A DNA stretch of 64,000 nt, taken from assembly GCF_040250305.1 (NCBI RefSeq), contig NZ_CP158190.1:2202001-2266000 (forward strand), given 5' to 3'. The DNA comes from Peribacillus frigoritolerans. GTDB taxonomy: Bacteria; Bacillota; Bacilli; Bacillales; DSM-1321. Made by a program: the position numbers and the translations under genes. Below the pieces are notes generated by a model. It was not told the origin of the DNA, made no database searches, and was given only the letters and a program-made list of their open reading frames with translations. Positions 16,826-32,745 of this stretch are shown in pieces. Position 1 is the stretch's first letter. Each line of letters opens with the position of its first letter.

Positions 16826-18068
16826 ATTTTGGATTGTCCTTTCCCATACATATCTATCAAAATTAAAGACGAAATCCTTTATCATTTCTACAATCATTAT
16901 GATGGCCCTGATTCTCGTCCTTTCGAATCTTTCGAATCTTATTGATAAATTCGACAGTGATGAACAGGAAAAGGTTGCCGTCATCGATCAGACTGAAGGC
17001 AGCTTATTTGATCCTTATAAAAAAGGGGTAGCAGGTGTGAACGATGACCTATCGATAATATCCGCCCAGGATGAAAAGGAAGCGGAGGAAATGGTCAGTG
17101 CGGAAAAAATCGTTGGGTATTTGATAATCGAAAATGATGAAACTCTCGGCTTCAAGGGAACGTATAAAGCGAATCAAATTTCAGATTCTGCGGTAAGTAA
17201 TGATTTGCTTTTAGCGCTAACCCAATTGAAGGGTCAAATAACCGCGAAGGAATTGAATTTGACAGAGCAGCAAATCGCTCAATTGAATACGCCGCCAGCA
17301 TTTGATACGATTGCGCTTCAGAAAAATGCTAAAACGGAAGAGGATCTCAATCAAGCACGAGGTCTCGTGTATGTTCTCTTATTCGTGATTTACTTCGGTG
17401 TCTTGATGTATGCAACGATGATTGCAATGGAAGTGGCTACTGAGAAAACATCACGAGTCATGGAAATCCTGATTTCAAGTGTCCCGCCAGTCACACAGAT
17501 GTTTGCCAAAATAATGGGTGTTGCATTGCTTAGTCTTACTCAAATGATTTTATTTTTTGGGGTGGGCTATTTCTCGATTAAACAAAACTTGACGGGTATG
17601 GATGAAGGATTCTTTTCATTTTTCGGTTTCGGCAGCACCGATATCTCAACGATCATTTATGCAATCATCTTCGCTTTGCTTGGGTATTTTCTGTACGCGA
17701 CTCTTGCGGCATGCCTTGGGTCCGTTGTCAGCAAAATTGAAGATGTCCAGCAAATGATATCACCGATGACCATGTTAGTTGTCATCGCCTTCATGATTGC
17801 GATGTTTGGACTGGGAAATCCGTCAGCCAGTTATATTACGATCACATCATTCATTCCATTTTTCACGCCGATGATCATGTTCTTGCGTGTAGGGATGCTT
17901 GAAGTTCCATTCTGGGAAATCGCCATCAGCATTGCAGTCTTGATCTTAACGATAGTTTTACTTGGAATAATCGGAGCAAAAATCTATCGGGGTGGAGTCT
18001 TGATGTATGGAAGCTCAAAATCACTGAAAAGCATCAAGAATGCCTTGCAATTATCCAAGAAAAATTAA
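16818..18068 (+). CDS. ABC exporter permease (YhaP/NatB-like)
   Basis: Membrane protein of 416 residues with ABC-2 topology. One N-terminal membrane helix (about 18-38) is followed by a large extracellular domain to about 185 and then five or six helices. The block EVATEKTSRVMEILISSVPPVTQMFAKI is diagnostic of the NatB/YhaP permeases. The start ATG overlaps the ATPase stop (ATGAATAA); a GTG nine bases upstream is in frame but less likely. It works with the preceding ATPase as an exporter. Followed by a terminator (18074-18110). Confidence 0.9.
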   Translation: MNKFWIVLSHTYLSKLKTKSFIISTIIMMALILVLSNLSNLIDKFDSDEQEKVAVIDQTEGSLFDPYKKGVAGVNDDLSIISAQDEKEAEEMVSAEKIVGYLIIENDETLGFKGTYKANQISDSAVSNDLLLALTQLKGQITAKELNLTEQQIAQLNTPPAFDTIALQKNAKTEEDLNQARGLVYVLLFVIYFGVLMYATMIAMEVATEKTSRVMEILISSVPPVTQMFAKIMGVALLSLTQMILFFGVGYFSIKQNLTGMDEGFFSFFGFGSTDISTIIYAIIFALLGYFLYATLAACLGSVVSKIEDVQQMISPMTMLVVIAFMIAMFGLGNPSASYITITSFIPFFTPMIMFLRVGMLEVPFWEIAISIAVLILTIVLLGIIGAKIYRGGVLMYGSSKSLKSIKNALQLSKKN

Positions 18069-18504: not shown

Positions 18505-18560
18505 TAATCACATTTGGAATCTTAATTAAGTGAAAATTAAAAAACTGAGGATACATGACC

Positions 18561-18640
18561 TATACCCCGAATAACGGACACACATAAAAAAGTCCCTTAT
18601 CCGGTTTTTTTTTATGTTTCAATAGGTGTTATGAGAAATG
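18561..18640 (+). mobile_element. IS end remnant, copy 1
   Basis: Carries the segment TATACCCCGAATAACGGACA, then CACATAAAAAAGT, the CCCTTATCCGG half and ATGTTTCAATAGGTG, shared with copies at 29252 and 49391. It stops before any transposase codons that I can recognise. The hairpin would also act as a terminator. The rest of the gap 18641-18859 (AT-rich, a hairpin-like GGCATAG...GCAGTGTC with T tract near 18740-18775) shows no gene. Confidence 0.6.
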
Positions 18641-18858
18641 AGTCTCGTTTTCGATGGGGACTAAAGAAAATGGCCCCGGTACAAAACTCGGACCACCTAT
18701 TAGCCGCATAGGCGCCTTGTTATACTGTCCGAAAAAGTGGCATAGTTCATTTTAATGAGGCAGTGTCTTTTTTTAGAAGTAGATGGAGAGATCATCTAAG
18801 TAGCCCTTCTGTAATCCTGAAGTTCCTTTTTAATATTATTAATACTTACATACAAATT

Positions 18859-18899
18859 AAAATATTTAATTTTATTTAATTATAATTTATGAGTATACT
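18859..18899 (+). promoter_or_regulatory. Shared AT-rich promoter element, copy A (CoA ligase operon)
   Basis: Contains TTTAATTTTATTTAATT then ATAATTTAT and a GTATACT -10-like box. Over about 100 bases it is nearly identical to the element between the LysR gene and its divergent SDR (31050-31090). It lies 83 bases before the acyl-CoA ligase start and is probably a LysR-type operator plus promoter. Confidence 0.65.
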
Positions 18900-18981
18900 T
18901 AAAATGTAATAATAGTTTAAATATTCAAAATAGTTGGCGATTCAAAGCCTTCTATGTGAGAAAAGGGGTGGAATTCATTTA

Positions 18982-20517
18982 ATGAGTTATAACTTAAACG
19001 AAAATCTAAAACGAAGCGCCAGTAATTTCCCAGAAAGTATCGCTTATATCTATGGAGATAAAAGTGTTACTTATCAAGAACTAAATCAGAAGGTGGATCA
19101 ATTGGCTGCTGGTCTCTATGTACAAGGAATCAGGAAGGGAGATGGAGTGGCTCTTATATTAGGAAATAGCCCTGAATTTCTCATTGCGTACTACGGTATT
19201 TTACGGCTTGGTGCATTTGTTGTTCCGATCAATCCTTTTTATACCCAAGGGGAAATCAAATACTTATTAGACAATTGTCAAGCCAAAGCGGTCATTACTC
19301 ATGTATCTGTAGAACCGAAGTTATCTGAAGTAAAAAAGCAATTGGAAAATTTGAAGCTTGTGGTTTATACCGAAGCCGAGAATCAGGAATCGACATGGGA
19401 GCGTCTCATGGAAACAAGCACAAGCTTTAATGCTTGTGGAAGCCCTTACATTAATGATGAAGATCTTGCAGTCATTCTATACACATCAGGAACAACCGGG
19501 AAACCAAAGGGTGCAATGTTAACGCATCGGAACTTGGTTTCAAATGCGGACTCCATTTCAAAATTATTAGAATTCGATGAAAAAGATCGTGTAGTAGCTG
19601 TTCTGCCAATGTTCCATGTATTCTGTATGACAGTTTGTCTGAATGCGCCAATTGCTTGTGGGGCAACAGTCCTTATCCAGCCTAAATTCAGCCCTCATGA
19701 CGTGGTCAGCATCATTCGAGAAAAAAAGGCAACCGTGTTTGCTGGAGTACCTACGATGTACAGTTTTATCTATCAATTGCCTGAAGCGAATGCGGAGGAT
19801 TGCCAATCTATCCGCATGTGTATCTCTGGAGGTGCCTCGATTTCGGCAGAGCTGCTGCATAAATTTGAAAACAAGTTTAATGTTTCTATCTTGGAAGGGT
19901 ATGGGCTTTCGGAAACTTCTCCTCTCGTCGCTATTAATCCTTTAAAAGGAACTCGCAAGCCAGGTTCTATCGGTTTGAATATTCCAGCTGTCCAAAGCAA
20001 AGTTGTAGGTGAGTTCGGAAAAGAATTGCCGAGAGGAGAGGTCGGAGAATTAGTTGTTCAAGGGCCAAATGTAATGAAGGGATATTTGGGGATGCCGGAA
20101 ACTACTTCAGCTGCTTTTAATGACGGGTGGTTTTACACTGGTGATCTCGCAACAATGGATGAAGAAGGATACATCTACATTGTTGACCGCAAGAAAGACA
20201 TTATTATTGTTGGAGGCTACAATGTATATCCTCGTGAAGTGGAGGAAGTCCTGTATCAACATCCAGCTGTAGTAGAGGCTGCCGTAATCGGAGTTCCAGA
20301 TGGGGAATACGGTGAAAGTGTTAAAGCTTTTGTCGTAGTTAAGGATGAGCATATCACCATGAATGACATTATTCAATTCTGTCAGGATAGGCTGGTGAAG
20401 TACAAACTTCCTAAACGAGTAGAATTTTTTAAAGAACTGCCTAAGAATTCAACAGGGAAGATTTTGCGCAGAGAGTTAAGAGAATTGACTGAAGTAAGAA
20501 AAGAACCTATTTATTAA
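18982..20517 (+). CDS. Acyl-CoA ligase (AMP-forming)
   Basis: ANL-superfamily adenylating enzyme of 511 residues that activates a carboxylic acid to its CoA thioester through an acyl-AMP. Motif A3 is YTSGTTGKPKGAMLTHRN; A5 is GYGLSETSP. The hinge is GDLATMDEEGYIYIVDRKKD and the catalytic Lys lies in NSTGKILRREL at the C-terminus. An upstream in-frame ATG (18934) would add 16 odd residues. ATG 18982 has GGGGTGG ten bases before it and gives a typical N-terminus. It is 12 bases from dioxygenase 1 and sits under the shared promoter element. The acid is unknown; the length fits medium/long-chain or aryl acids. Confidence 0.92.
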   Translation: MSYNLNENLKRSASNFPESIAYIYGDKSVTYQELNQKVDQLAAGLYVQGIRKGDGVALILGNSPEFLIAYYGILRLGAFVVPINPFYTQGEIKYLLDNCQAKAVITHVSVEPKLSEVKKQLENLKLVVYTEAENQESTWERLMETSTSFNACGSPYINDEDLAVILYTSGTTGKPKGAMLTHRNLVSNADSISKLLEFDEKDRVVAVLPMFHVFCMTVCLNAPIACGATVLIQPKFSPHDVVSIIREKKATVFAGVPTMYSFIYQLPEANAEDCQSIRMCISGGASISAELLHKFENKFNVSILEGYGLSETSPLVAINPLKGTRKPGSIGLNIPAVQSKVVGEFGKELPRGEVGELVVQGPNVMKGYLGMPETTSAAFNDGWFYTGDLATMDEEGYIYIVDRKKDIIIVGGYNVYPREVEEVLYQHPAVVEAAVIGVPDGEYGESVKAFVVVKDEHITMNDIIQFCQDRLVKYKLPKRVEFFKELPKNSTGKILRRELRELTEVRKEPIY

Positions 20518-20529
20518 AGGGGGATAATT

Positions 20530-21585
20530 ATGTCAACCATTTTAAAGGAAAAAGTAAAAGGGCAAGTAGCGTGGAAAGGCACTGAGCTGGCAAAAGATGA
20601 TTCATGGGTTTATTATTTGTCTGAAAAAACGATTGCCTCTCTTGAGAACGCTTTGGTTCATGTTAAACAAAAGGGATTAAAAGCACCTGATTTTAGCAAA
20701 GAGGATTTTCCGATTCCTGATTTATATGAAGAAATCGTTTACTTTGTTGAAGAGCTGGAGAATGGGAGAGGGTTCCTATTAATTCGTGGATTACCTATTG
20801 AAAGGTATACAGATGAAGATGTAAGCATCATTTACTGGGGTCTCGGACTTCACTTGGGCATTCCGGTATCGCAAAACGCAAATGGTGACCTCTTAGGGCA
20901 CGTCAAAGATCAAGGTTTTAGCTTAGAAAATTCTAATGTACGTGGTTACCAAACGAAACTGCATCTTCCATTTCATGCAGATGGATCTGATGTTGTTGGA
21001 TTATTAAGCCTGCGAAAAGGGAAATCTGGAGGGCACAGCAGTATCATAAGTTCGATGACTGTTTACAATGAAATTTTGGAGAAGAACCCGGAATATCTAG
21101 GAGTTCTCTGTCGTCCATTTTTCTTTGATCGCCGTGGAGAGGAAGCTCCGGGAGAACCTCCAGTATTTAAATCATCAATCTTTAATTATTTTGATGGTAA
21201 ACTGAGCTGTAGATATGTCCGTTTATTTATCGAATCAGCACAAGCAAAAACTGGCATCCAATTGTCGAAAGTGGAAATTGAAGCATTAGACTTACTGGAT
21301 TCCCTCCTTCATGATGAGAATTTGCATTATAACATGATGTTGGAGCCGGGGGATATGCAGTTCGTCAATAATTATACGATTCTGCACTCACGTACTCAAT
21401 ACGAAGACTATGAGGAGCCGGAACGCAAACGTCATCTTTTAAGATTGTGGCTCACAATGCCAAATGGTCGGGAAATTTCCCCTGAATTCGCGATGTTTAT
21501 TGATGAGAATACTGGTAAACCAGGTCGCGGCGGCGTACCGCAACGTAAAACAACATCTGGCGGTATTGTAGAAACCCTGAAGTGA
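20530..21585 (+). CDS. TauD/TfdA-type Fe(II)/2-oxoglutarate dioxygenase, paralogue 1
   Basis: Dioxygenase of 351 residues. The facial triad is visible as H149-x-D151 in FHADGSDVVGLL and distal H286 in NNYTILHSRTQYED. The 2-oxoglutarate-binding Arg lies in RKRHLLRLWL (R301/R305). These enzymes hydroxylate a substrate next to an acid, ether or sulfonate with release of succinate and CO2. RBS AAAGGGGG precedes the ATG and the gene directly follows the CoA ligase. Two close paralogues lie at 23139 and 26572. The substrate is unknown. A hairpin terminator follows, then an MFS carrier. Confidence 0.9.
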   Translation: MSTILKEKVKGQVAWKGTELAKDDSWVYYLSEKTIASLENALVHVKQKGLKAPDFSKEDFPIPDLYEEIVYFVEELENGRGFLLIRGLPIERYTDEDVSIIYWGLGLHLGIPVSQNANGDLLGHVKDQGFSLENSNVRGYQTKLHLPFHADGSDVVGLLSLRKGKSGGHSSIISSMTVYNEILEKNPEYLGVLCRPFFFDRRGEEAPGEPPVFKSSIFNYFDGKLSCRYVRLFIESAQAKTGIQLSKVEIEALDLLDSLLHDENLHYNMMLEPGDMQFVNNYTILHSRTQYEDYEEPERKRHLLRLWLTMPNGREISPEFAMFIDENTGKPGRGGVPQRKTTSGGIVETLK

Positions 21586-21611
21586 TTTTTATAAAACGTT
21601 AAGAACGAGTC

Positions 21612-21646
21612 GGAACACCTTTTAAGAACTCAGAAAAAGGTGTTCC
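21612..21646 (+). terminator. Hairpin between dioxygenase 1 and MFS carrier 1
   Basis: Perfect 12-bp stem GGAACACCTTTT (21612-21623) with AAAAGGTGTTCC (21635-21646). There is no long T tract, so termination may be partial and allow expression of the MFS gene. Confidence 0.7.
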
Positions 21647-21673
21647 TTATATAGTAAAACGTGGGGGATTCAC

Positions 21674-22966
21674 ATGACAAGCACTCCAAAGTATTCTTGG
21701 ATTATCTTATTATTTCTTGTTCTTAGCGGGATGATCAACCAAGTGGATAAAATAATTATTGGCTTGGTTTCAGTTCCTTTAATGAAAGAGTTACATTTAA
21801 GTCCAACGCAATGGGGAGTCGTAGGGAGTTCTTTCTTTTGGTTCTTTACCTTCTCATCTATTATTCTTGGCGGCATGGCAGATTCAAAAAACACAAAAAA
21901 AATGTTAACTTGGATGTCCTTGATTTGGTTGATAGTTCAATTTGTTACCCCTTTCGTTAGCGGTTTGTCCATGCTTTTGTTAACCAGAATGATTTTGGGA
22001 GCTGGTGAAGGTCCTGCCCCCGCTCTATCCACGGCAATCATGGGAAAATGGTTCCCGAAACATAGGCACGGCATCGGCTTTGGTGCGGTTCTATTAGGAA
22101 CGACCGGAGGATCTGCGATCGCTTCACCATTATTAATCTCCTTGATTGATCATTATGGATGGAGATCTGCATTTATAGCGATGGGTATTCTGGGACTGAT
22201 TGTGCTGGTTTTATGGATGATTTTCGGTAAAGAAAGTCCTGAAGAAATCGGCTTTCCGTCGATACAGCATAAGGAGCAGCAATCATCTAGACTCTCTAAA
22301 GTTTCTTGGAGTCAGTTTCTTCCGCATCTGATATCTAAAAATTTTATTCTGATCGTTCTGTGCGGGGGGTGTGCCTATTGGTTATTGTCCGTACAAGCGG
22401 TATGGCTTCCAGCCTATTTCACCAAAATTCAACATTTTAATGGTCAAACATTAAAATTAGCCGTGTCTTTACCTTTTCTTTTTGCAGCCTTTTTCCAATT
22501 AGGATTTGCCATTCTATCAGATCGGCTCTATCGTAAGACCGGAGATATTCGTAAAGCACGAATAAATCTTGCCGGTATAACGATGATGTTATCCGCTTTA
22601 TGCTTATACCTAGCAAATGCCGCGAATTCCACGGCGATGTCCATATTGTTCTTCACCCTTGCTCCTGGTTTTGCGTATGTCATTCTTTCACTCGCACCCG
22701 CAATATTGATGGAGTTTTTTTCTCCTCAAAATATTGGAAAGGCACAAGGGACGTTCATTGCACTTGCGAGTATTACAAGTATTATTGCTCCACTCGTATT
22801 TGGCTATTTTATTCAAAATGCGGAGACTGAAGCTATCGGATATGGATACGCATTTCAAGCCTCTTCTTTAGGGATGCTCATAATCGGATTATTGTTTTGG
22901 ATCTGTGTACGTCCCGCAAAAGAAAGCCACACAATAAATGAAACAGATGAGCATGTGAGCATTTAA
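21674..22966 (+). CDS. MFS transporter 1 (anion/organic acid type)
   Basis: Major facilitator of 430 residues with about twelve membrane helices. The GGMADSKNTKKM loop between helices 2 and 3 and the ARMILGAGEGPAPALS-type helix 4 region suggest the anion:cation symporter family. It is a close paralogue of the carrier at 27743; both follow a TauD-type dioxygenase gene. It probably imports the substrate of this cluster. RBS GTGGGGG lies just before the ATG. Confidence 0.9.
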   Translation: MTSTPKYSWIILLFLVLSGMINQVDKIIIGLVSVPLMKELHLSPTQWGVVGSSFFWFFTFSSIILGGMADSKNTKKMLTWMSLIWLIVQFVTPFVSGLSMLLLTRMILGAGEGPAPALSTAIMGKWFPKHRHGIGFGAVLLGTTGGSAIASPLLISLIDHYGWRSAFIAMGILGLIVLVLWMIFGKESPEEIGFPSIQHKEQQSSRLSKVSWSQFLPHLISKNFILIVLCGGCAYWLLSVQAVWLPAYFTKIQHFNGQTLKLAVSLPFLFAAFFQLGFAILSDRLYRKTGDIRKARINLAGITMMLSALCLYLANAANSTAMSILFFTLAPGFAYVILSLAPAILMEFFSPQNIGKAQGTFIALASITSIIAPLVFGYFIQNAETEAIGYGYAFQASSLGMLIIGLLFWICVRPAKESHTINETDEHVSI

Positions 22967-23007
22967 GTGATATAAAACGTAGATTGAAAAGATTCTTAGT
23001 AAGATTA

Positions 23008-23047
23008 TATTAGTTTAACTTAATTATAAGTTACAAATGATAGTCAT
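23008..23047 (+). promoter_or_regulatory. Shared AT-rich promoter element, copy B (dioxygenase 2)
   Basis: Divergent copy: TTAGTTTAACTTAATTATAA then GTTACAAATGATAGT. It retains the core CTTAATTATAAG dyad and lies about 90 bases before dioxygenase 2. Confidence 0.5.
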
Positions 23048-23138
23048 TTAATGAATAATTAATAAGTGTACCATAAACTTTAAATTCAAAATATTCGGTC
23101 GATTACAGCGGTATAACAAATATAAAGGAGGAATATGT

Positions 23139-24137
23139 ATGTCAGTTATTTTAAAGGAAAAAATTCAAGGGCGTTCAGCGTGGAAAGGTATCGAACTTGC
23201 AAAAGATGATTCATGGATTTATTATTTGTCAGAGAAAACCCTTGCAGCTCTAGACAAGGCTGTATTACATGTTCAACAAAAAGGGTTAAAGGCTCCCAAT
23301 TTTAACAAGGAGGATTTCCCTATTCCTGATCTCACTGATGAAATTGCTTATTTTGTTGATGAGCTGGAGAATGGGAGAGGATTTCTATTGATTCGTGGAT
23401 TACCAATGGATCAATATACCGACGATGAAGCTAGTATCATTTACTGGGGTCTTGGACTCCACTTGGGCCTACCGATCATTCAAGAAAAAAAGGGTGACCT
23501 CTTGGGGCATATCAAAAATATGGGTAAAGACTTTAATGATAATACAACAGTAAGAGGTTACCAAACGAATGTACGTCTTGACTATCACACAGATCTCGCT
23601 GATGTTGTCGGATTACTATGTCTTCGTAAAGCGAAATCTGGTGGTTTAAGCAGTATCGCTAGTGCGATGTCTATCTATAATGAAATTCTGGATAATCACC
23701 CAGAGTATCTTGAAATTCTCTATCGTCCATTCGCCCATGATCTTCGTGGGGAAGAGGCACCAGGTCAATCTCCCGTAGTTCCATCACCGGTCTTTAGCTA
23801 TTACGATGGTAAATTAAGCTGTAGATATATACGTCAGTATGTCGAATCAGCACAAACGAAAACAGGTATCTCTTTGTCGAAAGAGGAAATCGAAGCATTT
23901 AATTATATAGATTCCCTTACTGCTGATAAAAACTTTCATATTGATATGATGATGGAACCGGGTGATATGCAATTCGTTAATAATTATACTGTTTTTCATT
24001 CACGTACACTATTTGTAGATTATGAAGAAGAAGACCGCAAACGTCATTTATTAAGATTGTGGCTCATGATGCCAAATGGCCGAAAAATTGCTCCTGGTTT
24101 CGAGTTTTATATAGGAGGAGCACCTGTAATTAGATAA
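23139..24137 (+). CDS. TauD/TfdA-type dioxygenase, paralogue 2
   Basis: Paralogue of 332 residues, co-linear with copies 1 and 3 over its first 310 or so residues. Metal ligands are H150-x-D152 (DYHTDLADVV) and H287 (NNYTVFHSRT), with the 2-oxoglutarate Arg in RKRHLLRLWL. It has diverged most in the metal loop (DYHTD versus FHADG/FHPDG) and has lost the Gly-rich C-terminal tail of the other two, ending GGAPVIR. It is the only copy not followed by an MFS gene. A different substrate or enantiomer preference is plausible. RBS AAAGGAGG precedes the ATG. Confidence 0.9.
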   Translation: MSVILKEKIQGRSAWKGIELAKDDSWIYYLSEKTLAALDKAVLHVQQKGLKAPNFNKEDFPIPDLTDEIAYFVDELENGRGFLLIRGLPMDQYTDDEASIIYWGLGLHLGLPIIQEKKGDLLGHIKNMGKDFNDNTTVRGYQTNVRLDYHTDLADVVGLLCLRKAKSGGLSSIASAMSIYNEILDNHPEYLEILYRPFAHDLRGEEAPGQSPVVPSPVFSYYDGKLSCRYIRQYVESAQTKTGISLSKEEIEAFNYIDSLTADKNFHIDMMMEPGDMQFVNNYTVFHSRTLFVDYEEEDRKRHLLRLWLMMPNGRKIAPGFEFYIGGAPVIR

Positions 24138-24175
24138 AAACCGGTGGTAATAGTAATCACCAATATTTCTTGTAT

Positions 24176-24213
24176 GGTGATTTTATTCAACGAAAATAAT
24201 GAATAAAATCACC
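24176..24213 (+). terminator. Terminator after dioxygenase 2
   Basis: Perfect 14-bp stem GGTGATTTTATTCA (24176-24189) with TGAATAAAATCACC (24200-24213), followed by ATTTTATG. Confidence 0.75.
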
Positions 24214-24272
24214 ATTTTATGTTTCTTTAACTGGTTAATTTTTTAAAAAAACTGAAGTGAGGATGATGTTTT

Positions 24273-25220
24273 TTGGCAAATTTAGATCCGCAAGCAGAAA
24301 AATATTTACAAGCATTTAATCAGCTGCCATCTATTCATACGATGGATCATAAGTCAGTGAGAGAGATGCTTTCTAAAGCACCGCGTTCTGCCGTAAAACT
24401 GGAACCGCTTTCGAAAGTTGAGGAATTCAAGATTCCGGTAAGCCAGGATGAAACAATCAAATGCAGGGTATATATACCGGAAGGGCAAGGTCCTTTCCCT
24501 CTATTTATTTACTACCATGGTGGAGGATGGGTTCTAGGAGACATTGAAACATCGGATGCTAGCTGCCGAATGATAGCGAATCGAACGGAAAGTATCGTTG
24601 TATCCGTAAACTATCGTCTTTCTCCAGAGTATAAGTTTCCGACTCCAGTAGAAGACGCCTATTCCGCATTGCAATGGGTTTTTGAAAATGGGCCTTCATT
24701 TAACGGAGAAGTTTCTCGATTGGTAGTTGGAGGGGATAGCGTAGGTGGAAATCTAGCTACTGTAATTACGATGATGGCTAGAAACAAAAAAGGTCCAAAC
24801 ATCACTGCACAGGTCTTAATCTATCCTGCGACAAATCTTGAGTTCAATACGGAATCCCATCGAACCTTTGCAAAAGGATTTGGTCTTGATCGCGAACAGT
24901 TGATTTGGTTCCGTGATCATTATTTAAGGAATAGTGAGGACAGATGTAATGAGTATGCTTCCCCCTTGGTAGCTCAAGATTTGAGTGGTCTCCCGCCAGC
25001 AATGGTTATTACAGCGGAAAATGATGTGCTTCGGGATGAAGGAATGGCCTATGCTGAACGTCTGAAAGATTTTGGTGTTCAAGTTGAATATGGATGTGAA
25101 CCAGGGATGGTCCACGGATTTTTTGTACAAATGGATATTTTCTCAAAGAACATAGAATTGACTGTTTCTAGGATCGAGAAGTTCTTGAGTTCCTTAAAAT
25201 ATACAATTGGGATAGATTGA
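24273..25220 (+). CDS. Alpha/beta hydrolase, hormone-sensitive-lipase family esterase
   Basis: Esterase of 315 residues. The oxyanion-hole motif is YYHGGGWVLGD, the nucleophile elbow GGDSVGGN, the acid in AENDVLRDEG and the catalytic His in MVHGFF. This is the full HSL/AADAC triad. The start is TTG with GTGAGGA about ten bases upstream; the two ATGs just before are out of frame. No shared promoter element was found in front of it. It may hydrolyse an ester or lactone precursor of the acid used by the cluster. Confidence 0.9.
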   Translation: MANLDPQAEKYLQAFNQLPSIHTMDHKSVREMLSKAPRSAVKLEPLSKVEEFKIPVSQDETIKCRVYIPEGQGPFPLFIYYHGGGWVLGDIETSDASCRMIANRTESIVVSVNYRLSPEYKFPTPVEDAYSALQWVFENGPSFNGEVSRLVVGGDSVGGNLATVITMMARNKKGPNITAQVLIYPATNLEFNTESHRTFAKGFGLDREQLIWFRDHYLRNSEDRCNEYASPLVAQDLSGLPPAMVITAENDVLRDEGMAYAERLKDFGVQVEYGCEPGMVHGFFVQMDIFSKNIELTVSRIEKFLSSLKYTIGID

Positions 25221-25238
25221 AAGAAAATGTTTTAAATG

Positions 25239-25270
25239 AAGCGAGCCTCAGAATTTAGTGAGGCTCGCTT
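25239..25270. terminator. Bidirectional terminator between esterase and SDR
   Basis: Perfect 12-bp stem AAGCGAGCCTCA (25239-25250) with TGAGGCTCGCTT (25259-25270), between two convergent genes. Confidence 0.85.
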
Positions 25271-25325
25271 AAAATAACCTATTTAATTTTACAAACGAAA
25301 CAATATCAATAGTAACCCTAGGCAT

Positions 25326-26099
25326 TTAGTAATAAACGGTATTTCCAATTCCACCGGTTACCGAAATGACATCGCCAGTTATCGATGCCGCCAAAGGTGA
25401 AGCTAGGAAGGTAACGACATAAGCAATTTCCTCTGGTGTAATCATGCGGCCGAGGGCATTCATTGATGCTGCCTGGCGTATAGCTTCCTCATTAGTGACA
25501 CGGCCTCTAAACGTTTCAGTATCGACAATCCCTGGATAAACAGCATTGACAGTAATTTCGTGCTTTCCTAATTCTAATGATGCGGATTTTGTCATATGGA
25601 CAACAGACGCATTACGAGGTCCGGAACTAAAATAATTGCCGCCTATTCTAGCTGCCAGACCACTTATATTGATAATACGTCCCCAATTATTTTGAATCAT
25701 ATAAGGAGCAACAGCCCGGATACAACGAAAATAGCCCAAATACTTTTCTTCAAAATCTTTCAGGATAAGTTCATCTTTAATGCTATTAAATTCCTCTGGT
25801 TCATGGCCTCCAACACGGGCCCCACTGTTGATTAAAATATCAATGCTCCCCATTACTGCTGCTGTTTTTTCAACTAAATTAAGGATAGAGTCAGGATCAT
25901 TAGTATCTGCCACGATTGGATAAATACTTCTGTTGGTTTCTTTTGCCAATTCGTCTGCTGCATTCTTTAGTGAAGATTCGTTTCTTGAACAAATCGTACA
26001 ATCAACACCTTCCAAAGCCAACTGACGGGCAATAGCTTTGCCAATCCCCCTGCTTCCTCCAACGATAAGTGCTTTTTTTCCAGATAATTTTAAGTCCAT
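25326..26099 (-). CDS. SDR-fold protein lacking the canonical catalytic Tyr/Lys
   Basis: Short-chain dehydrogenase fold of 257 residues. The cofactor loop GGSRGIGKAIA and the following CSRN (NADP-type Arg) are intact, as is the ISG strand. The usual active-site YxxxK is absent: the aligned segment reads GPRNASVVHMTKSAS, with Arg where Tyr is expected and Val where Lys is expected. The NNAG motif is NSGAR. Known families with this RNA-type variant exist, so the protein may be a non-classical reductase or may not be a redox enzyme. It is transcribed on the minus strand from its own copy of the shared promoter element. RBS AGGAGG-like lies just upstream (26103-26109). Confidence 0.85.
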   Translation of the reverse strand: MDLKLSGKKALIVGGSRGIGKAIARQLALEGVDCTICSRNESSLKNAADELAKETNRSIYPIVADTNDPDSILNLVEKTAAVMGSIDILINSGARVGGHEPEEFNSIKDELILKDFEEKYLGYFRCIRAVAPYMIQNNWGRIINISGLAARIGGNYFSSGPRNASVVHMTKSASLELGKHEITVNAVYPGIVDTETFRGRVTNEEAIRQAASMNALGRMITPEEIAYVVTFLASPLAASITGDVISVTGGIGNTVYY

Positions 26100-26179
26100 A
26101 GTTCAACCTCCTGTTTCGAATTAACTTGTATTACCTCTGCTTGAAAGTTATTTGTTAGAATATTTAATCATTTCTATCT

Positions 26180-26229
26180 TTGATTCTACCTATAAATGAT
26201 AATTATATAAAATTAAAAATTTTTAATTA
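26180..26229 (-). promoter_or_regulatory. Shared AT-rich promoter element, minus-strand copy (SDR)
   Basis: Read on the minus strand this is AAATTTTTAATTTTATATAA, TTATCATTTATAGG, then TAGAATC. It matches the plus-strand copies base for base over most of its length and faces the SDR at 26099. Its twin (copy C) at 26316 faces the other way. Confidence 0.65.
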
Positions 26230-26313
26230 CACTTAAGTTATATTAATGTGTTGAACGATTGTCATTTACAAAGGTGTATTATTTTCCATTTATTAGTAAA
26301 GATGATTTGCAGA

Positions 26314-26358
26314 TTAAAAATTTTAATTTTATTTAACTGAAAATTATGAATATAATTA
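26314..26358 (+). promoter_or_regulatory. Shared AT-rich promoter element, copy C (dioxygenase 3)
   Basis: AAATTTTAATTTTATTTAAC then TGAAAATTATGAATATAAT. It forms a back-to-back pair with the minus-strand copy. The long leader 26359-26571 to dioxygenase 3 holds no gene that I can support. Confidence 0.65.
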
Positions 26359-26571
26359 ACGGTATAACATTTATAACAGTCAGAAGTTATTTAAAGCGCT
26401 TCAACGGAAATGAAGGGGGGGACAAGGAACATCATTAATTAAACAATAATTGTTTGTATAAGGGTGTGAAAGATAGAGGCAGTCGCTTTTAAAGTAGGAA
26501 AACAGCCCAAACTTTTTCATTAAGTACTTTAGTTAAAATTGATTGCCATAGAAAACGAAGGAGGGTTCTCG

Positions 26572-27627
26572 TTGCCGTCTATTTTAAAGAAAAAAATTCA
26601 AGGACCAGTAGCTTGGAAAGGTATTGAGATAGCAAAAGATGATTCATGGATTTATTATTTGTCAGAGAAAACGATTGCAAATCTTGAAAGCGCTTTATTT
26701 TATGTAAAACAAAAAGGGTTAAAGGCACCTGATTTTAACAAGGAGGACTTTCCAATTCCGGATCTTTCTGACGAAATAGCTTATTTTATAAACGAGCTGG
26801 AAAATGGGAGAGGTTTTCTATTAATTCGTGGCTTACCAATTGAAAAGTATACAGATGAAGAAGCAAGCATCATATACTGGGGTATCGGAGTCCACCTGGG
26901 CATCCCGGTAACGCAAAACGCAAAAGGTGATCTATTAGGGCATGTTGTTGACCAAGGTCTCGACATTAATGATTCAAATGTACGTGGTTACCAAACGAAT
27001 GCTCATCTTCCCTTTCACCCAGATGGTTCTGACGTAGTCGGATTATTAAGCCTTCGAAAAGCTAAATCTGGAGGTTACAGTAGTATCGTAAGTTCCATCG
27101 CCGTTTACAATGAAATTCTGGATAGGTACCCAGAGTATCTTGGAATTCTTTATCTTCCATATTTTTTTGATCGTCGTGGTGAGGAAACACCAGGTGAATC
27201 TCCTGTTTATTCATCACCAGTCTTTAGTTATTACGAAGGTAAATTAAGCTGCAGATATAACCGCGGGTATGTCGAATCGGCACAAGCGAAAACAGGGAGA
27301 TATTTGTCAAAAGTTGAAACTGAAGCATATGACTTAATAGATTCCCTCTTATATGATGAAAACATGCATATTGATATGATGATGGAACCGGGTGATATGC
27401 AATTTGTTAATAATTATTCTGTTCTTCATTCACGTACTGTATACGAAGACTATGAAGAACCTGAACGCAAACGTCATTTATTAAGATTATGGCTCACGAT
27501 GCCAAATGGGCGAGAAATTGCGCCAGACTTCGCGATGTTCATTGATGAGAAAACAGGTAAAGCGGGTCGCGGCGGTATTCCGGTACATGAAAAAACAGTT
27601 GGAGGTATTGTAGATAAGATGAGGTAA
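26572..27627 (+). CDS. TauD/TfdA-type dioxygenase, paralogue 3
   Basis: Third paralogue, 351 residues when started at TTG 26572, exactly the length of copy 1. GAAGGAGGG lies directly upstream at suitable spacing, and the first residues then align with the others (..ILK.K). Metal ligands are H149-x-D151 (FHPDGSDVV) and H286 (NNYSVLHSRT), with the 2-oxoglutarate Arg in RKRHLLRLWL. It keeps the Gly-rich tail (GKAGRGGIP). As with copy 1, an MFS carrier gene follows, so dioxygenase plus carrier appears to be a duplicated unit. Confidence 0.9.
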   Translation: MPSILKKKIQGPVAWKGIEIAKDDSWIYYLSEKTIANLESALFYVKQKGLKAPDFNKEDFPIPDLSDEIAYFINELENGRGFLLIRGLPIEKYTDEEASIIYWGIGVHLGIPVTQNAKGDLLGHVVDQGLDINDSNVRGYQTNAHLPFHPDGSDVVGLLSLRKAKSGGYSSIVSSIAVYNEILDRYPEYLGILYLPYFFDRRGEETPGESPVYSSPVFSYYEGKLSCRYNRGYVESAQAKTGRYLSKVETEAYDLIDSLLYDENMHIDMMMEPGDMQFVNNYSVLHSRTVYEDYEEPERKRHLLRLWLTMPNGREIAPDFAMFIDEKTGKAGRGGIPVHEKTVGGIVDKMR

Positions 27628-27742
27628 TGGAATTAATAAATATAAAGAGTTTAGACAAGGTTTAACACGGAAGATTTACCTTTAAAAACTTTTAAAACAC
27701 CAATTGATTCATGTTAACGGGATAGAAGGGGAGATTATTAAT

Positions 27743-29026
27743 TTGAAAACACCTAAATATTCTTGGATCATATTATTAATTCTTGTAGCTTCAGGTATGA
27801 TCAACCAGGTTGATAAGATCATCATTGGTTTGGTTTCTGTTCCTCTAATGAAAGAGTTACATTTAAGTCCTTCACAATGGGGAATTGTCGGGAGTTCGTT
27901 TTTTTGGTTCTTTACCTTTTCATCTTTCATTCTAGGGGGAATGGCCGATTCAAGAAATACGAAAAAAATGTTTACTTGGATCTCGTTTATCTGGTTGATT
28001 GTTCAATTTACCACTCCTTTTGTTTCCAGTCTGTCTCTGCTAGTTTTGACAAGAATGGTCTTGGGAGCAGGAGAAGGTCCTGCAGTTGCTATATCAACTT
28101 CAATAATAGGTAAATGGTTCCCTAAACATAGACATGGTATAGGCTTTGGTGCTGTTCTCTTTGGAGCAACAATCGGGCCCGCGATTGCTTCGCCATTATT
28201 AATCTCCTTGATCAATGGATATGGATGGAGATCTGCTTTTATAGCCATGGGAATTGTTGGACTAATGGTGCTAGTTTTATGGTTGATTCTTGGAAAAGAA
28301 AGCCCAAAAGAAATCGGTTCGTATACTTTTGATCAAGAAGATAAGCACTCAATAATTTCTTCTAATGTTTCTTGGCGTCAGTTTCTTCCGTATCTATTAT
28401 CTAAAAATTTTATTTTTATCGTTTTGTGTGCAGGCTGTGCCTATTGGTTATTGTCCGTTCAAGCTGTATGGTTTCCTGCATATTTTACCGAAATTAAACG
28501 TTTTGATGGAAAAATGTTAAAACTTGCAGTGTCTTTACCTTTTCTTTTTGCTGCCCTTTGCCAAATTGTATTTGCCTTGTTATCGGATTGGCTTTATCGC
28601 AAAACAGGAGATATTCGTAAAGCACGAATAAATGTTGCAGGGATTACGATGGTGCTATCCGCTATTTGTTTATTTCTTGCAAATGCCTTTAATTCTAGTT
28701 CTATTTCCATTCTATTCTTCATCCTTGCTCCGGGTTTTGCGATTGTTATTCTTTCACTCGCACCCGCCATATTAATGGAATTATTTTCTCCCAAAAACAT
28801 TGGAAAGGCTCAAGGGACCTATGTGGCTCTATCAAGTTCAACAAGCATTATTGCTCCTCTCATATTCGGGTATTTTATCCAGTATGCAGGAACAGAGGCA
28901 ATTGGATATGGTTATGGCTTCCAAGTAACTTCTTTGGTCATGTTCGTAATCGGATTATTGTTTTGGGCCATTGTCCGTCCTGTGAACCAAAATCAGATAA
29001 AACCTGAGGAACAAGTTATTGTATAA
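27743..29026 (+). CDS. MFS transporter 2 (paralogue of the 21.7-kb carrier)
   Basis: Major facilitator of 427 residues, highly similar along its length to the carrier at 21674, with the same GGMADSRNTKKM loop and AGEGPA motif. I start it at TTG 27743 with GAAGGGGAG (27725-27733) nine bases upstream, which gives an N-terminus matching the paralogue (K/STPKYSW). The in-frame TTG at 27704 would add 13 unrelated residues. It probably imports a relative of the acid carried by transporter 1. Confidence 0.88.
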   Translation: MKTPKYSWIILLILVASGMINQVDKIIIGLVSVPLMKELHLSPSQWGIVGSSFFWFFTFSSFILGGMADSRNTKKMFTWISFIWLIVQFTTPFVSSLSLLVLTRMVLGAGEGPAVAISTSIIGKWFPKHRHGIGFGAVLFGATIGPAIASPLLISLINGYGWRSAFIAMGIVGLMVLVLWLILGKESPKEIGSYTFDQEDKHSIISSNVSWRQFLPYLLSKNFIFIVLCAGCAYWLLSVQAVWFPAYFTEIKRFDGKMLKLAVSLPFLFAALCQIVFALLSDWLYRKTGDIRKARINVAGITMVLSAICLFLANAFNSSSISILFFILAPGFAIVILSLAPAILMELFSPKNIGKAQGTYVALSSSTSIIAPLIFGYFIQYAGTEAIGYGYGFQVTSLVMFVIGLLFWAIVRPVNQNQIKPEEQVIV

Positions 29027-29063
29027 AAATCATTAATAGGTGAATCAAGGAGGGAAATAAACT

Positions 29064-29219
29064 ATGTGTAAAAATGAAAAGGCCGTTTCTGAGATGGACT
29101 GTTGTGTATTGTGTCGTGAAGAATTAGCTATTATGGAGCGAAATCGCAGCAAGTGCTGGAGTTGTCAGGATAAGATAACCGAGACTTACGCTGATGATCA
29201 TATTGAAGTTGAGGATTAA
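29064..29219 (+). CDS. 51-residue cysteine-rich (CxxC/CxxC) protein
   Basis: Small ORF with a strong AAGGAGGG site before ATG 29064, 37 bases after the MFS stop, so likely in the same operon. It encodes 51 residues with two knuckles, CVLC (14-17) and CWSC (31-34), plus an extra Cys at 13, and an acidic tail. The spacing suggests a single zinc-ribbon-like site. I do not recognise the family. It could be a metal-binding accessory or regulatory peptide of the dioxygenase cluster. Confidence 0.7.
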   Translation: MCKNEKAVSEMDCCVLCREELAIMERNRSKCWSCQDKITETYADDHIEVED

Positions 29220-29251
29220 ATAATTCAGTAGTTTCGTAACAGGATTTGAAC

Positions 29252-29751
29252 TATACCCCGGATAACGGACACACATAAAAAAGTGTCCCTTATCCGGGTT
29301 TTCTTTGTTCAATAGGTTTAAAGAGTATGGAAGGAGGATTTCCATGAGAAAGAATATATATACTCTGAATTTCGGATTAAAGAACTTAAAAAGAATCCAA
29401 CTATCATAAGTGCTTCAGAGCGGCCTATCTCCTAAAATCATGAATTTAAAACAAAAGCTGTTAAGGAATAGAATAAGGGGAAATCCCCCTCTCAAATTTT
29501 CTTGGAACATGGATTTAATTTCGAAATAATTGGTAAGGAACAACCTAAGCGTTGTCTACATCGCTGGTATGATACCTTTGAAAGGGTTTGGTGAGGAAGG
29601 CTTTTCTTACGGAACACAGTGGAAAAGGAAGTATAAGACGCCCTTCTTCCAAGCCACTGTTTGTAGAGGGTCAACTTAAGAATGCCGAAGCGTGAATCAA
29701 ATTCCTTGAAGCAGAAAATGAGTTTCTAAAAAACTGGAAGAGTTAGAAAGG
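29252..29751 (+). mobile_element. Degenerate IS3-family (IS150-type) element, copy 2, left part
   Basis: The left end carries the same hairpin as at 18561 and 49391 (ACCCCGGATAACGGACAC, then GTGTCCCTTATCCGGG). AAGGAGG then precedes ATG 29343, opening MRKNIYT. Downstream, several frames give pieces typical of IS3-family OrfA, ending KFLEAENEFLKKLEELERR near 29690-29750. Multiple stops and frameshifts make it non-functional, and OrfB and the right end are missing. Its 3' edge abuts a CoA-transferase remnant at about 29752, so a deletion or insertion joined them. Confidence 0.65.
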
Positions 29752-29753
29752 CG

Positions 29754-30001
29754 GGCAGTAACAATTGTGGGGTGGATGATTGGGAATGGGGTCACTGCTT
29801 ACCAATAAAAAGATTAAGAAAATAGTAGGTGAGAACAAGTTCTTTGAAAAGCAATTTTTAAGTGGAGAATTGGAAGTAGAGCTTGTTGATTTTACTGAGG
29901 GAATGTTTCTTGCTGAAACTCAAGAAGGTGTTTCACTTGATGAAGTGATGGAAAAGACAAGTGGTGAAGGGGATCGCCAAAAGGCTTCTATTAAAAGGTA
30001 A
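29754..30001 (+). pseudogene. 3-oxoacid CoA-transferase remnant (scoA/scoB fusion by deletion)
   Basis: The piece SNNCGVDDW, then after a one-base frameshift near 29784 MGSLLTNKKIKKIVGENK and FFEKQFLSGELEVEL, matches the centre of CoA-transferase subunit A. It jumps directly into DFTEGMFLAETQEGVSLDEV, which resembles the C-terminal tail of subunit B. The middle of both genes is therefore deleted. A 73-codon frame is open from TTG 29780 but cannot make an active transferase. Such enzymes activate 3-oxoacids such as acetoacetate with succinyl-CoA. Confidence 0.65.
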
Positions 30002-30048
30002 AGAGATAACACTGCTAATGTCTGTTAGGGTAGAGATAGATTTTAAAG

Positions 30049-30094
30049 AAGAGAAGCTTTTCGCCACCTTGAGACGAAGAGCCTTCTCTTTTTT
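30049..30094. terminator. Bidirectional terminator between CoA-transferase remnant and LysR gene
   Basis: AAGAGAAGCTTTTCG (30049-30063) pairs with CGAAGAGCCTTCTCTT (30075-30090) and is followed by a T tract. It sits five bases from the end of the minus-strand LysR gene. Confidence 0.75.
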
Positions 30095-30098
30095 TCTT

Positions 30099-31004
30099 TT
30101 AATTCTTAATGATTTCTGATTTTAAATAATGAATATATTTGTTGGCAAAACTGGACAAATGTTTATTCTCTGAACGAACTAATCCTAAAGAAATATTTAC
30201 AGTCGGGTGATACACCAAATCAATTGGAACGATATCGCCATTAATGATAAGGGGATAGTTTTTCATTACGAAATCAGGAGCAAATGTAATTGCCAAATTT
30301 TCATTGACTGCTTGGAGAACTCCATCCATATTATTTGAAGTAAATAAGATTTTCAAGGGCTTATATTTATGAAAGAATTCTTGTACAAAATACTGCATAA
30401 ATTCACCCTTATATGTCACGAGAGTTTGATCAAGTATATCATGCGGAGTTATAGTACCAAGGATGGCTAAGGGAGAATGCTTAGAAACATATACTTTCTG
30501 CTTCCCTTCGATTAATGCTTCAAAAGCTATTCCTTCCATGTTTATGTTCAAATCACTTGAATACGTAATCAGTCCAATGTCAGTCTTGTGCTGTCGAACA
30601 TCTCCAATTACAGCAGATCCACTTTTATCGGAAACCTCCAAATTTACGTGCGGATAATCATGTCTAAACGATGCTATCGCTTTTACCAGGAACGTCATCA
30701 ATCCAGGTAATGACGAAATTTTTAGTTCCCCCACTTCCGTGGAATTCAATAAGTTAGCAGTCTCTTTTATTTCCTCAAGTTTTTTTTGTACTTCATAGGC
30801 GAGTTTCAAAATGATTCTTCCTTCATCGGTTGGGACAGCGCCGTGTCCCCGTGACCGCTTAAGAACTTTAATCCCCAACTCCTTTTCCAAGTTGGTTATG
30901 GACTGGCTGATGTTGGATTGGGTCACATGTAGATTCTGTGCTGCGATAGACAGAGAACTATATTTTGCGACTTCTACGATATATAGTAATTGTTCAATAT
31001 TCAT
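30099..31004 (-). CDS. LysR-family transcriptional regulator of the dioxygenase cluster
   Basis: LysR-type regulator of 301 residues. The N-terminal winged helix (residues 1-60, MNIEQLLYIVEVAKYSSLSIAAQNLHVTQSNISQSITNLE) and the linker helix are canonical. The effector domain begins with GELKISSLPGL. It is divergent from an SDR gene, with a shared AT-rich element in the 143-base gap. The same element recurs before six other transcription units between 18.8 and 32.8 kb. I infer that it regulates the whole catabolic cluster, with a substrate or CoA-ester as effector. Confidence 0.93.
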   Translation of the reverse strand: MNIEQLLYIVEVAKYSSLSIAAQNLHVTQSNISQSITNLEKELGIKVLKRSRGHGAVPTDEGRIILKLAYEVQKKLEEIKETANLLNSTEVGELKISSLPGLMTFLVKAIASFRHDYPHVNLEVSDKSGSAVIGDVRQHKTDIGLITYSSDLNINMEGIAFEALIEGKQKVYVSKHSPLAILGTITPHDILDQTLVTYKGEFMQYFVQEFFHKYKPLKILFTSNNMDGVLQAVNENLAITFAPDFVMKNYPLIINGDIVPIDLVYHPTVNISLGLVRSENKHLSSFANKYIHYLKSEIIKN

Positions 31005-31047
31005 GACTGTTCTCCTTTTTAATATTAGTAATACTTACTTACCACAT

Positions 31048-31090
31048 TAAAATCTTTAATTTTATTTAATTATAATTTATTAGTATAATC
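31048..31090 (+). promoter_or_regulatory. Shared AT-rich promoter element, copy D (LysR/SDR divergent gap)
   Basis: AATCTTTAATTTTATTTAAT then TATAATTTATTAGTATAATC. The last part gives a -10 (TATAAT) with no recognisable -35, as expected for an activator-dependent promoter. Location between the divergent LysR gene and its SDR neighbour is the classic site of a LysR operator. Confidence 0.7.
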
Positions 31091-31147
31091 AATATCAATA
31101 ATATTTTAAAATCTTTGAATATTCAAAAAAACAGGAGGGGAACTAGA

Positions 31148-31936
31148 ATGTCATTAAACCAATTGTTTGATTTAAATGGTAAGACAGCAATCGTTACCGG
31201 AGGCGGCAGCGGGTTAGGTCGTGTAATGGCACTGGCGTTGGCAGAAGCCGGAGCAAACGTTGTTGTATGTTCACGGCGTTTAGAAGTTTGCGAAGCAGTT
31301 GTAAAAGAAATCGAGGCGTTAGGAAGACAGGCACTTGTTCTATCATTGGATGTCACAGATCGGGAATCAGTCGTTCAAGGTGTAGAAAAAGCGGTAACTC
31401 ATTTTGGAAAAATCGAAATTTTAGTCAACAGCAGCGGAACAGTTTTTGAGTCACCTGCTACGGATATGCCTTTAGAACAATGGCAAGCTATGCTGGATAC
31501 AAATTTGACAGGAACATTCTTGATGTGTCAGGCAGTTGGAAAACATATGATTAACAACGAATACGGTAAAATCATTAATATTTCTTCTAGTATCGGCTTT
31601 AAAGGTGTTGACCCGGAAGCTGTGGATTCTGTCGGATATACAACCAGTAAGGGTGCAGTCATGACTTTAACGAAGGATCTAGCAGTTAAGTGGGGCCGGC
31701 ATGGAGTGTATGTAAATTCAATTGCTCCTGGAGTTTTCACTACAGGAATGAATAACCCAGAAATACCGGGAACACTTGTACACAAAGCAGGCCCTTTCAT
31801 CGCTTCACAAGTTCCAGTTAGAAGATTAGGCAGTGACAATGATTTGGTAGGTGCACTCCTTTACTTTGCTTCAGCAGCATCTGATTATTGTACTGGACAT
31901 ATATTGACTCTTGATGGTGGACTTGGGGCTAAGTAA
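31148..31936 (+). CDS. SDR-family oxidoreductase
   Basis: Short-chain dehydrogenase of 262 residues with the classical elements: TGGGSGLG cofactor loop, CSRR (NADP preference), INISSS, and catalytic YTTSKGAV. NNAG is replaced by NSSG. The C-terminal LDGGLGAK is typical. AGGAGGGG lies seven to eight bases before ATG 31148; a start 33 bases upstream is open but lacks a site. It probably oxidises an alcohol or hydroxyacyl intermediate formed after the dioxygenase step. Confidence 0.92.
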   Translation: MSLNQLFDLNGKTAIVTGGGSGLGRVMALALAEAGANVVVCSRRLEVCEAVVKEIEALGRQALVLSLDVTDRESVVQGVEKAVTHFGKIEILVNSSGTVFESPATDMPLEQWQAMLDTNLTGTFLMCQAVGKHMINNEYGKIINISSSIGFKGVDPEAVDSVGYTTSKGAVMTLTKDLAVKWGRHGVYVNSIAPGVFTTGMNNPEIPGTLVHKAGPFIASQVPVRRLGSDNDLVGALLYFASAASDYCTGHILTLDGGLGAK

Positions 31937-31971
31937 ATTTTATCCAAATAAGGTGGTTGCGTAAATTAATC

Positions 31972-32030
31972 ATACTTAATTGCAATTAAAAAATATCGAT
32001 TTTACTTAATTGATAATTAAGAATATACTG
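31972..32030 (+). promoter_or_regulatory. Shared promoter element, copy E with two dyads (cupin gene)
   Basis: Two palindromes occur here: CTTAATTGCAATTAA (31974-31988) and CTTAATTGATAATTAAG (32005-32021). The second is a perfect inverted repeat fitting a LysR T-N11-A box, followed by ATATACT. The pair could be recognition and activation sites. It precedes the cupin by about 95 bases. Confidence 0.65.
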
Positions 32031-32124
32031 AAAATAACAAATTTGAAACTATTTAATTTGCTTGTTGATGAAAGAAAAACAATAAGCGAATTTAATAAAT
32101 ATTTATTGAAAGAGGGGATTTTAA

Positions 32125-32601
32125 GTGAGTAATTTAAAAGATGTAAAAGAAGTAGAAGTATTTCATGCAGGTAATGTTAGTGTAGATGAATTGCCTTGGA
32201 TTCCATATTTTGGAGATGCGAAATTTAAATTGCTTAAAGCCAACCCTGTGACAGGACAGACGGTTACGTTGTTATGTGTTCCTGCGAAAATGCAGCTTCC
32301 GGCCCATTTCCATCCTGGAACAGTCATTGTTTATACCGTCCAAGGGACTTGGAGATATCTCGAGGAGCCTTGGATCTCCAAACCTGGTGACATGGTTTAT
32401 GAGCCTGCAGGCTCCAAACATACGCCGATAGCTGTAGGGGATGAAGATGTTATCACCTTCAATATTGTAGAAGGAACATTGGACTATTTGGGTGAAGAAG
32501 GAGAAATTGTTGCCAGAGACAATTGGGAAACATTCCTGAGAAAATACTATGAACATTGTGCGGCTGAAGGAATTGAACCAATTGATGTGACTAAATTTTA
32601 G
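32125..32601 (+). CDS. Cupin protein, 2,4'-dihydroxyacetophenone dioxygenase (DAD)-like
   Basis: Single-domain cupin of 158 residues. Metal-ligand motif 1 is PAHFHPGTVIVYTVQGTWRY and motif 2 is KPGDMVYEPAGSKHTPI. The overall pattern (GTVIVYTVQGTWRYLE, AGSKHT) recalls DAD-family dioxygenases, which cleave C-C bonds next to a carbonyl. The start is GTG with AGAGGGG about nine bases upstream. It is monocistronic with its own LysR-type element and a terminator. A role in cleaving a diketone or hydroxyketone intermediate is an inference. Confidence 0.82.
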   Translation: MSNLKDVKEVEVFHAGNVSVDELPWIPYFGDAKFKLLKANPVTGQTVTLLCVPAKMQLPAHFHPGTVIVYTVQGTWRYLEEPWISKPGDMVYEPAGSKHTPIAVGDEDVITFNIVEGTLDYLGEEGEIVARDNWETFLRKYYEHCAAEGIEPIDVTKF

Positions 32602-32614
32602 TTAGATTTATAAA

Positions 32615-32660
32615 AAAAGAGAAGCCCGGCGTCCAATGACGAAGAGGCTTCTCTTTTTTC
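32615..32660 (+). terminator. Terminator after the cupin gene
   Basis: Twelve-bp stem AAAAGAGAAGCC (32615-32626) with GGCTTCTCTTTT (32646-32657), followed by T residues. Confidence 0.85.
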
Positions 32661-32701
32661 TGGGCTATCTCTTTTGATATTAATAATAATAATTTATATA
32701 T

Positions 32702-32745
32702 TAAAATTTTTAATTTTATTTAATTAAAACTTATAAGTATAATCG
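32702..32745 (+). promoter_or_regulatory. Shared AT-rich promoter element, copy F (third SDR)
   Basis: AAAATTTTTAATTTTATTTA then ATTAAAACTTATAAGTATAATC. It nearly equals copies A and D and ends in TATAAT. It lies about 75 bases before the SDR at 32820. Confidence 0.68.

Follow-up and report, generated by a model that had tools for sequence, protein, structure and literature searches.

Six near-copies of a 65-bp element as the probable operator-plus-promoter of a local LysR-type regulon in Peribacillus frigoritolerans

In the general scheme for LysR-type regulators, as outlined in an excerpt of PMC8407307, a recognition site is found near -65 and an activation site over the -35/-10 region, and the inducer causes a shift of the downstream dimer. 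An excerpt of PMC5002191 places the sites of OccR at -64 and -33. The DNA studied here, referred to as the window, is a stretch of 64,000 nucleotides from the one-contig genome (5,596,670 bases) of Peribacillus frigoritolerans. An island in this window contains six near-copies of an AT-rich element of about 65 bp, which we take, with a probability of roughly 0.84, to be the operator-plus-promoter of a local regulon under the LysR-type regulator encoded at 30099. An earlier note on this DNA had tied six transcription units to the same LysR protein. The link is supported by the LysR-box architecture of the element, its co-occurrence with LysR among genomes, its place in the LysR gap even when the facing gene differs, and the spacings found beside LysR paralogues.

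The element consists of a T-N11-A box, TTARTnnnAYTTA, near -65, a second identical box 30 bp downstream that covers the -35 region, and a TATAAT-like -10 (TATAAT, TATACT or TAGAAT), so that the spacing rule reads box-30 bp-box-28 bp-(-10). This numbering assumes a putative transcription start 7 nucleotides after the -10. The T-N11-A of box 1 is present in all six sites (Table 1), the sequence TTAAAA between the two boxes is conserved, and the G+C content of the elements is 4-15%. In the gap between LysR and the second of three short-chain dehydrogenase/reductase (SDR) genes the spacer contains one base more than at the five remaining sites. By eye, a third and weaker box can be suspected 11 bp below box 2.

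Table 1. Coordinates in the window of the elements, the regulator gene and its probable promoter; scores are those of the profile built from sites of other genera. CoA, coenzyme A; MFS, major facilitator superfamily.
Feature	Position	Strand	Box 1	Box 2	-10	Bits	Remarks
Element, CoA ligase-dioxygenase 1-MFS1	18836..18899	+	18836-18848	18866-18878	18894-18899	46.3	
Element, SDR1	26183..26246	-	26246-26234	26216-26204	26188-26183	39.3	
Element, dioxygenase 3-MFS2	26293..26356	+	26293-26305	26323-26335	26351-26356	42.8	
Element, LysR/SDR2 divergent gap	31025..31089	+	31025-31037	31056-31068	31084-31089	49.9	
Element, cupin	31966..32029	+	31966-31978	31996-32008	32024-32029	35.7	
Element, SDR3	32680..32743	+	32680-32692	32710-32722	32738-32743	36.5	
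Degenerate copy, dioxygenase 2	23006..23064	+				13.6	Model positions 2-62 of 72
LysR-type regulator gene	30099..31004	-					301 amino acids; Pfam HTH_1 and LysR_substrate
Probable LysR promoter TTGATA-18-TATAAT	31069..31098	-					11/12 matches; overlaps SDR2 element on opposite strand

The earlier note had described seven copies of an element of about 40 bp. The element is there, but about 22 bp of further upstream sequence belong to it, since the upstream box had been missed, and on the basis of the 17-locus consensus described below the single 40-bp site was replaced by the longer one. Six copies are strong (CoA ligase, SDR1, dioxygenase 3, SDR2, cupin and SDR3), and the one in the divergent LysR gap, to which the note had drawn attention, is the best-scoring of all. 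The seventh, before dioxygenase 2, is degenerate: its E-value is 0.0047 for the window, and its -10 is not matched, the profile match ending ten model positions short. Weak matches are found just upstream of the orthologous dioxygenase 2 in three of the eight other LysR-positive genomes of the family (G013, G027 and G029), and a function of this copy is doubtful. The same note held that the element has a -10 but no -35. A -10 is found in all six sites, and the -35 is poor, the best hexamer at 17-nucleotide spacing matching TTGACA at three or four of six positions in each. The two perfect dyads reported at the cupin do exist (31976-31989 and 32006-32020). As an operator core they were rejected; the first is kept in two and the second in none of 16 relatives, and they are thus probably incidental.

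The profile used for the genome searches is based on sequence only and was built from 37 of the 66 available sites from other genera, with no Peribacillus sequence included. In the whole genome it finds the same six sites at E<1e-6. Many AT-rich gaps of equal score, which the earlier note had considered fatal to a regulon, were not seen: no other place in the genome was found at E<=0.01, with stricter filters by which weak matches can be lost. An IUPAC pattern derived from the window sites and allowing up to three mismatches likewise finds exactly the six, while the reversed pattern used as control gives one match. In a cruder scan with a 43-bp consensus the mismatches were 0 (31047, plus strand), 1 (18857, plus), 2 (32701, plus), 5 (26183, minus), 6 (26314, plus) and 13 (31987, plus). 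The last of these, the cupin copy, was there level with unrelated AT-rich positions, but in an unfiltered search of the window the profile gives it its full score (Table 1) versus 9.1 bits for the best non-element match. When the gaps were shuffled, none of 3000 shuffles reached the observed score of a fixed-spacing template for any gap other than LysR/SDR2. The latter site scores 23/30 and is equalled by 34 of 3000 shuffles; it is missed by this template because of the extra base in its spacer, and has the top score with the profile, in which insertions are allowed.

Conservation was followed in 87 sites from 17 loci, comprising 16 relatives and the six sites of the window. The consensus shows a conserved stretch from about -74 to -8 that falls off outside these limits. 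When five site classes (CoA ligase, SDR1, SDR2, cupin and SDR3) are compared across genera, identity amounts to 0.39-0.53 over the 19 bases preceding the element and to 0.59-0.85 within box 1; the linker has 0.73-0.96, box 2 has 0.79-0.94 and the -10 has 0.87-1.00. The low value of 0.59 at box 1 belongs to SDR2, where a one-base shift of register occurs in the window and some Peribacillus loci. Just downstream of the element SDR2 shows an identity of 0.88 compared to 0.48-0.65 in the other classes, because the promoter of LysR itself lies there on the other strand. G/C has been retained at -68, -62 and -54. The element sits between LysR and SDR2 in the relatives L004-L017, and in four relatives an extra gene, which encodes a CoA-transferase or, in L005 and L010-L011, resembles one, also has an element (10 mismatches and thus weak in L005, 2 in L009, 4 in L010 and 3 in L011). 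Seven loci (L007, at 13035-13106, and L012-L017, at about 12.7 kb) lack dioxygenase 3, and the element belonging to it is found before MFS2. Strong elements about 0.45 kb upstream of LysR and facing away from it lie at 9487-9556 in L018 and at 6290-6353 in L110; the next long open reading frame in L018, 482 bp past the element, encodes a solute-binding protein.

The sites also follow the regulator from genome to genome. In the family set, where a genome was taken as LysR-positive with a match at E<=1e-90, all nine LysR-positive genomes out of 43 carry five to eight sites each, while the 34 without LysR have none except one weak partial match (E 0.005). The order was sampled with 299 genomes, some of them shared with the family set; all eight LysR-positive ones carry four to six sites each, and the remaining 291 gave only three single weak matches (G106, G225 and G233; E 1e-4 to 1e-3). 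These are counts over related genomes, which are not independent. The match in G225 lies in a LysR/cupin gap and is probably real. The match in G106 adjoins the gene for ribosomal protein S2 and is probably due to chance. One genome, G083, has three dioxygenase homologues (65-66% identity) but neither an orthologue of LysR nor any site.

As the island is inherited as a block, cases in which its pieces are uncoupled are more informative. Where LysR faces another gene, the element is still found next to the regulator; the facing gene may be SDR2, CoA ligase, dioxygenase 2 or, at paralogous LysRs, a cupin or a dioxygenase. G120 has two LysR copies (10591-11487 and 16351-17253 in its locus L111) that face CoA ligase and dioxygenase 2, with the element in both gaps. 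The two elements are identical over the 64-base span of the template, which points to duplication of LysR together with its gap. In a 20.9-kb locus of Lysinibacillus (L019) tblastn finds only LysR and the cupin, and the cupin keeps its element; this cupin site was part of the training set of the profile.

Among LysR paralogues, 50 places were listed at E<=1e-50 and 43 of these examined. With the true spacing four of the 43 score at least 26/30, and two of these (L157 and L158) were found by the template test itself. With 90 other spacings at most two paralogues reach the threshold, and they come only from the G328 and G225 loci. In G328 a LysR (44% identity) is followed by a dioxygenase (58%) with both boxes and a TATTAT at the same distances, matching 29 of 30 template positions, while the weak match in G225 is flanked by a LysR (36%) and a cupin (45%); for neither gap did any of 3000 shuffles reach the observed template score. 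The paralogue data suggest that the operators of some related orphan LysRs might be read in the same manner.

The regulator itself has an N-terminal HTH_1 and a C-terminal LysR_substrate domain (58.6 and 87 bits in Pfam, both above the cut-offs). Its nearest named relatives are from Peribacillus butanolivorans, P. simplex and P. frigoritolerans (98-99% identity), and its best solved relative is CysB. With the NCBIfam models for CidR and GltC, the nearest ones that bear a name, it scores 123.2 and 100.9 bits, far below the cut-offs of 415 and 350, and it is therefore not a member of those named families. Its probable promoter is kept in all 15 LysR/SDR2 gaps examined (the window and L004-L017). 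A divergent regulator with overlapping promoters is thus found at the LysR/SDR2 gap, but not in L018 and L019.

The sites, their spacing and conservation, their restriction to this part of the genome and their association with LysR genes can be read directly from the DNA. From these a mechanism may be proposed in which LysR would bind as a tetramer to the two boxes, the one near -65 being the recognition site and the one near -35 the activation site. An inducer, probably a substrate or an intermediate of the oxidative pathway of the island, would then switch on the six units, by activation rather than repression. As the -10 is present and the -35 is poor, transcription of these units should need the regulator, and because the promoter of LysR overlaps the element in the divergent gap, binding there should limit the synthesis of LysR itself, which suggests autorepression.

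Some observations speak against a regulon of this kind. The LysR gap of L019 lacks the element, while L018 and G010 have it about 0.45 kb upstream of LysR and pointing away from the gene. The right half of box 1 is poor at dioxygenase 3 and SDR3, and distant cupins in G266 and G328 (48-49% identity) have no element. The 9 genomes out of 43 that carry LysR are also those that carry the dioxygenases, and co-occurrence alone can therefore not separate LysR from the island. As for the paralogues, the cases in G328 and G225 had been noticed before the template test, 39 of the 43 examined fall below 26/30, and 7 of the 50 places lie outside the test. The spacing rule is thus not universal. It is a tentative idea, rated slightly lower because of these 39 paralogues, that the rule represents an ancestral, readable operator grammar of a multi-paralogue LysR subfamily in Bacillales, with the conserved A/T linker as a bending or polymerase-contact module. 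If so, the targets of many orphan LysR regulators would be predictable from sequence.

The elements might instead be bound by another regulator, most plausibly a LysR paralogue encoded elsewhere, with the protein at 30099 doing something else. Some paralogues elsewhere do share the layout, and the genome encodes two further LysR proteins (42-43% identity) at 1.50 and 2.36 Mb. The gaps beside these two score no more than 18-24/30 on the layout template, however, and the strongest element sits in the gap of LysR 30099, making such an arrangement unlikely. That the elements are an unregulated, UP-element-like AT-rich promoter type copied along with duplicated genes appears very unlikely. The dioxygenases and the MFS genes are duplicates, and TTAAAA is located where the alpha subunits of the polymerase can bind; yet the sites also precede unrelated genes (CoA ligase, cupin and SDRs), box 1 and its spacing are conserved as far up as -65 with the G/C positions kept, and no such promoter is found in genomes without LysR.

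A chance resemblance between AT-rich gaps has in its favour the low G+C content of the elements, the background level of the cupin site in the crude scan and the LysR/SDR2 gap, which is not significant with the fixed-spacing template. The pattern and profile searches of the genome, the shuffles of the other gaps and the conservation across genera reduce its probability to next to nothing, and it is already excluded for the six sites, though it may still account for the dioxygenase-2 copy.

The island, at 18.9-33.6 kb, encodes a CoA ligase, three TauD-type dioxygenases, two MFS transporters and an alpha/beta hydrolase, and in addition three SDR proteins, a cupin and the LysR regulator. Identities are 67-75% among the dioxygenases and 76% between the two MFS proteins, from which it follows that gene duplication has occurred. 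SDR1 and SDR2 share 26% identity, and SDR3 gave no blastp match to either at 1e-10. No element was found before the neighbouring acyl-CoA dehydrogenase gene. The dioxygenases show a distant match to FrbJ-type TauD hydroxylases (5eqn), and the cupin one to cupins of the 2,4'-dihydroxyacetophenone dioxygenase type (5bpx, 4p9g), ranked after the uncharacterised top match 3ebr. Judging by its enzymes, the island may serve to oxidise an organic acid via CoA esters. The plasmid neighbours of related dioxygenases, in the 2 of 20 listed regions that were opened, display mixed contexts that indicate no substrate, and among the papers listed in literature searches no title or abstract opening was found to concern this island.

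Another genome of the same species, G031, lacks LysR, the dioxygenases and the sites altogether, and the island is therefore a variable region within the species. A decayed CoA-transferase gene is found at 29757-29890, recognisable from short stretches of 59-76% identity in two reading frames; the gene is intact in L009 and L011. After dioxygenase 2 there is a 15-bp perfect inverted repeat at 24175-24214 (TGGTGATTTTATTCA...TGAATAAAATCACCA), possibly a terminator. Two near-identical terminator-like repeats (CTATACCCCGRATAACGGACACACATAAAAAAGT...) at 18560-18615 and 29251-29310 may have been left behind by insertion elements.

The units of the island are thus very probably regulated together, in a manner that is otherwise familiar. 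For these uncharacterised genes of oxidative degradation there is now a probable regulator, along with a precisely defined operator and six targets that make up a closed set, and the distribution of the element predicts the membership of the pathway. With knowledge of its inducer the system would provide a compact sensor. Compared to operators of the OccR, CatR and BsrA type, as far as the excerpts cited at the outset describe them, the element is similar in having a T-N11-A box near -65, a second site near -35 and an overlapping divergent promoter of the regulator. It differs from them in that its six near-copies are confined to 14 kb, the rest of the genome having none, in the box sequence TTARTnnnAYTTA, and in that the A/T linker is conserved as well.

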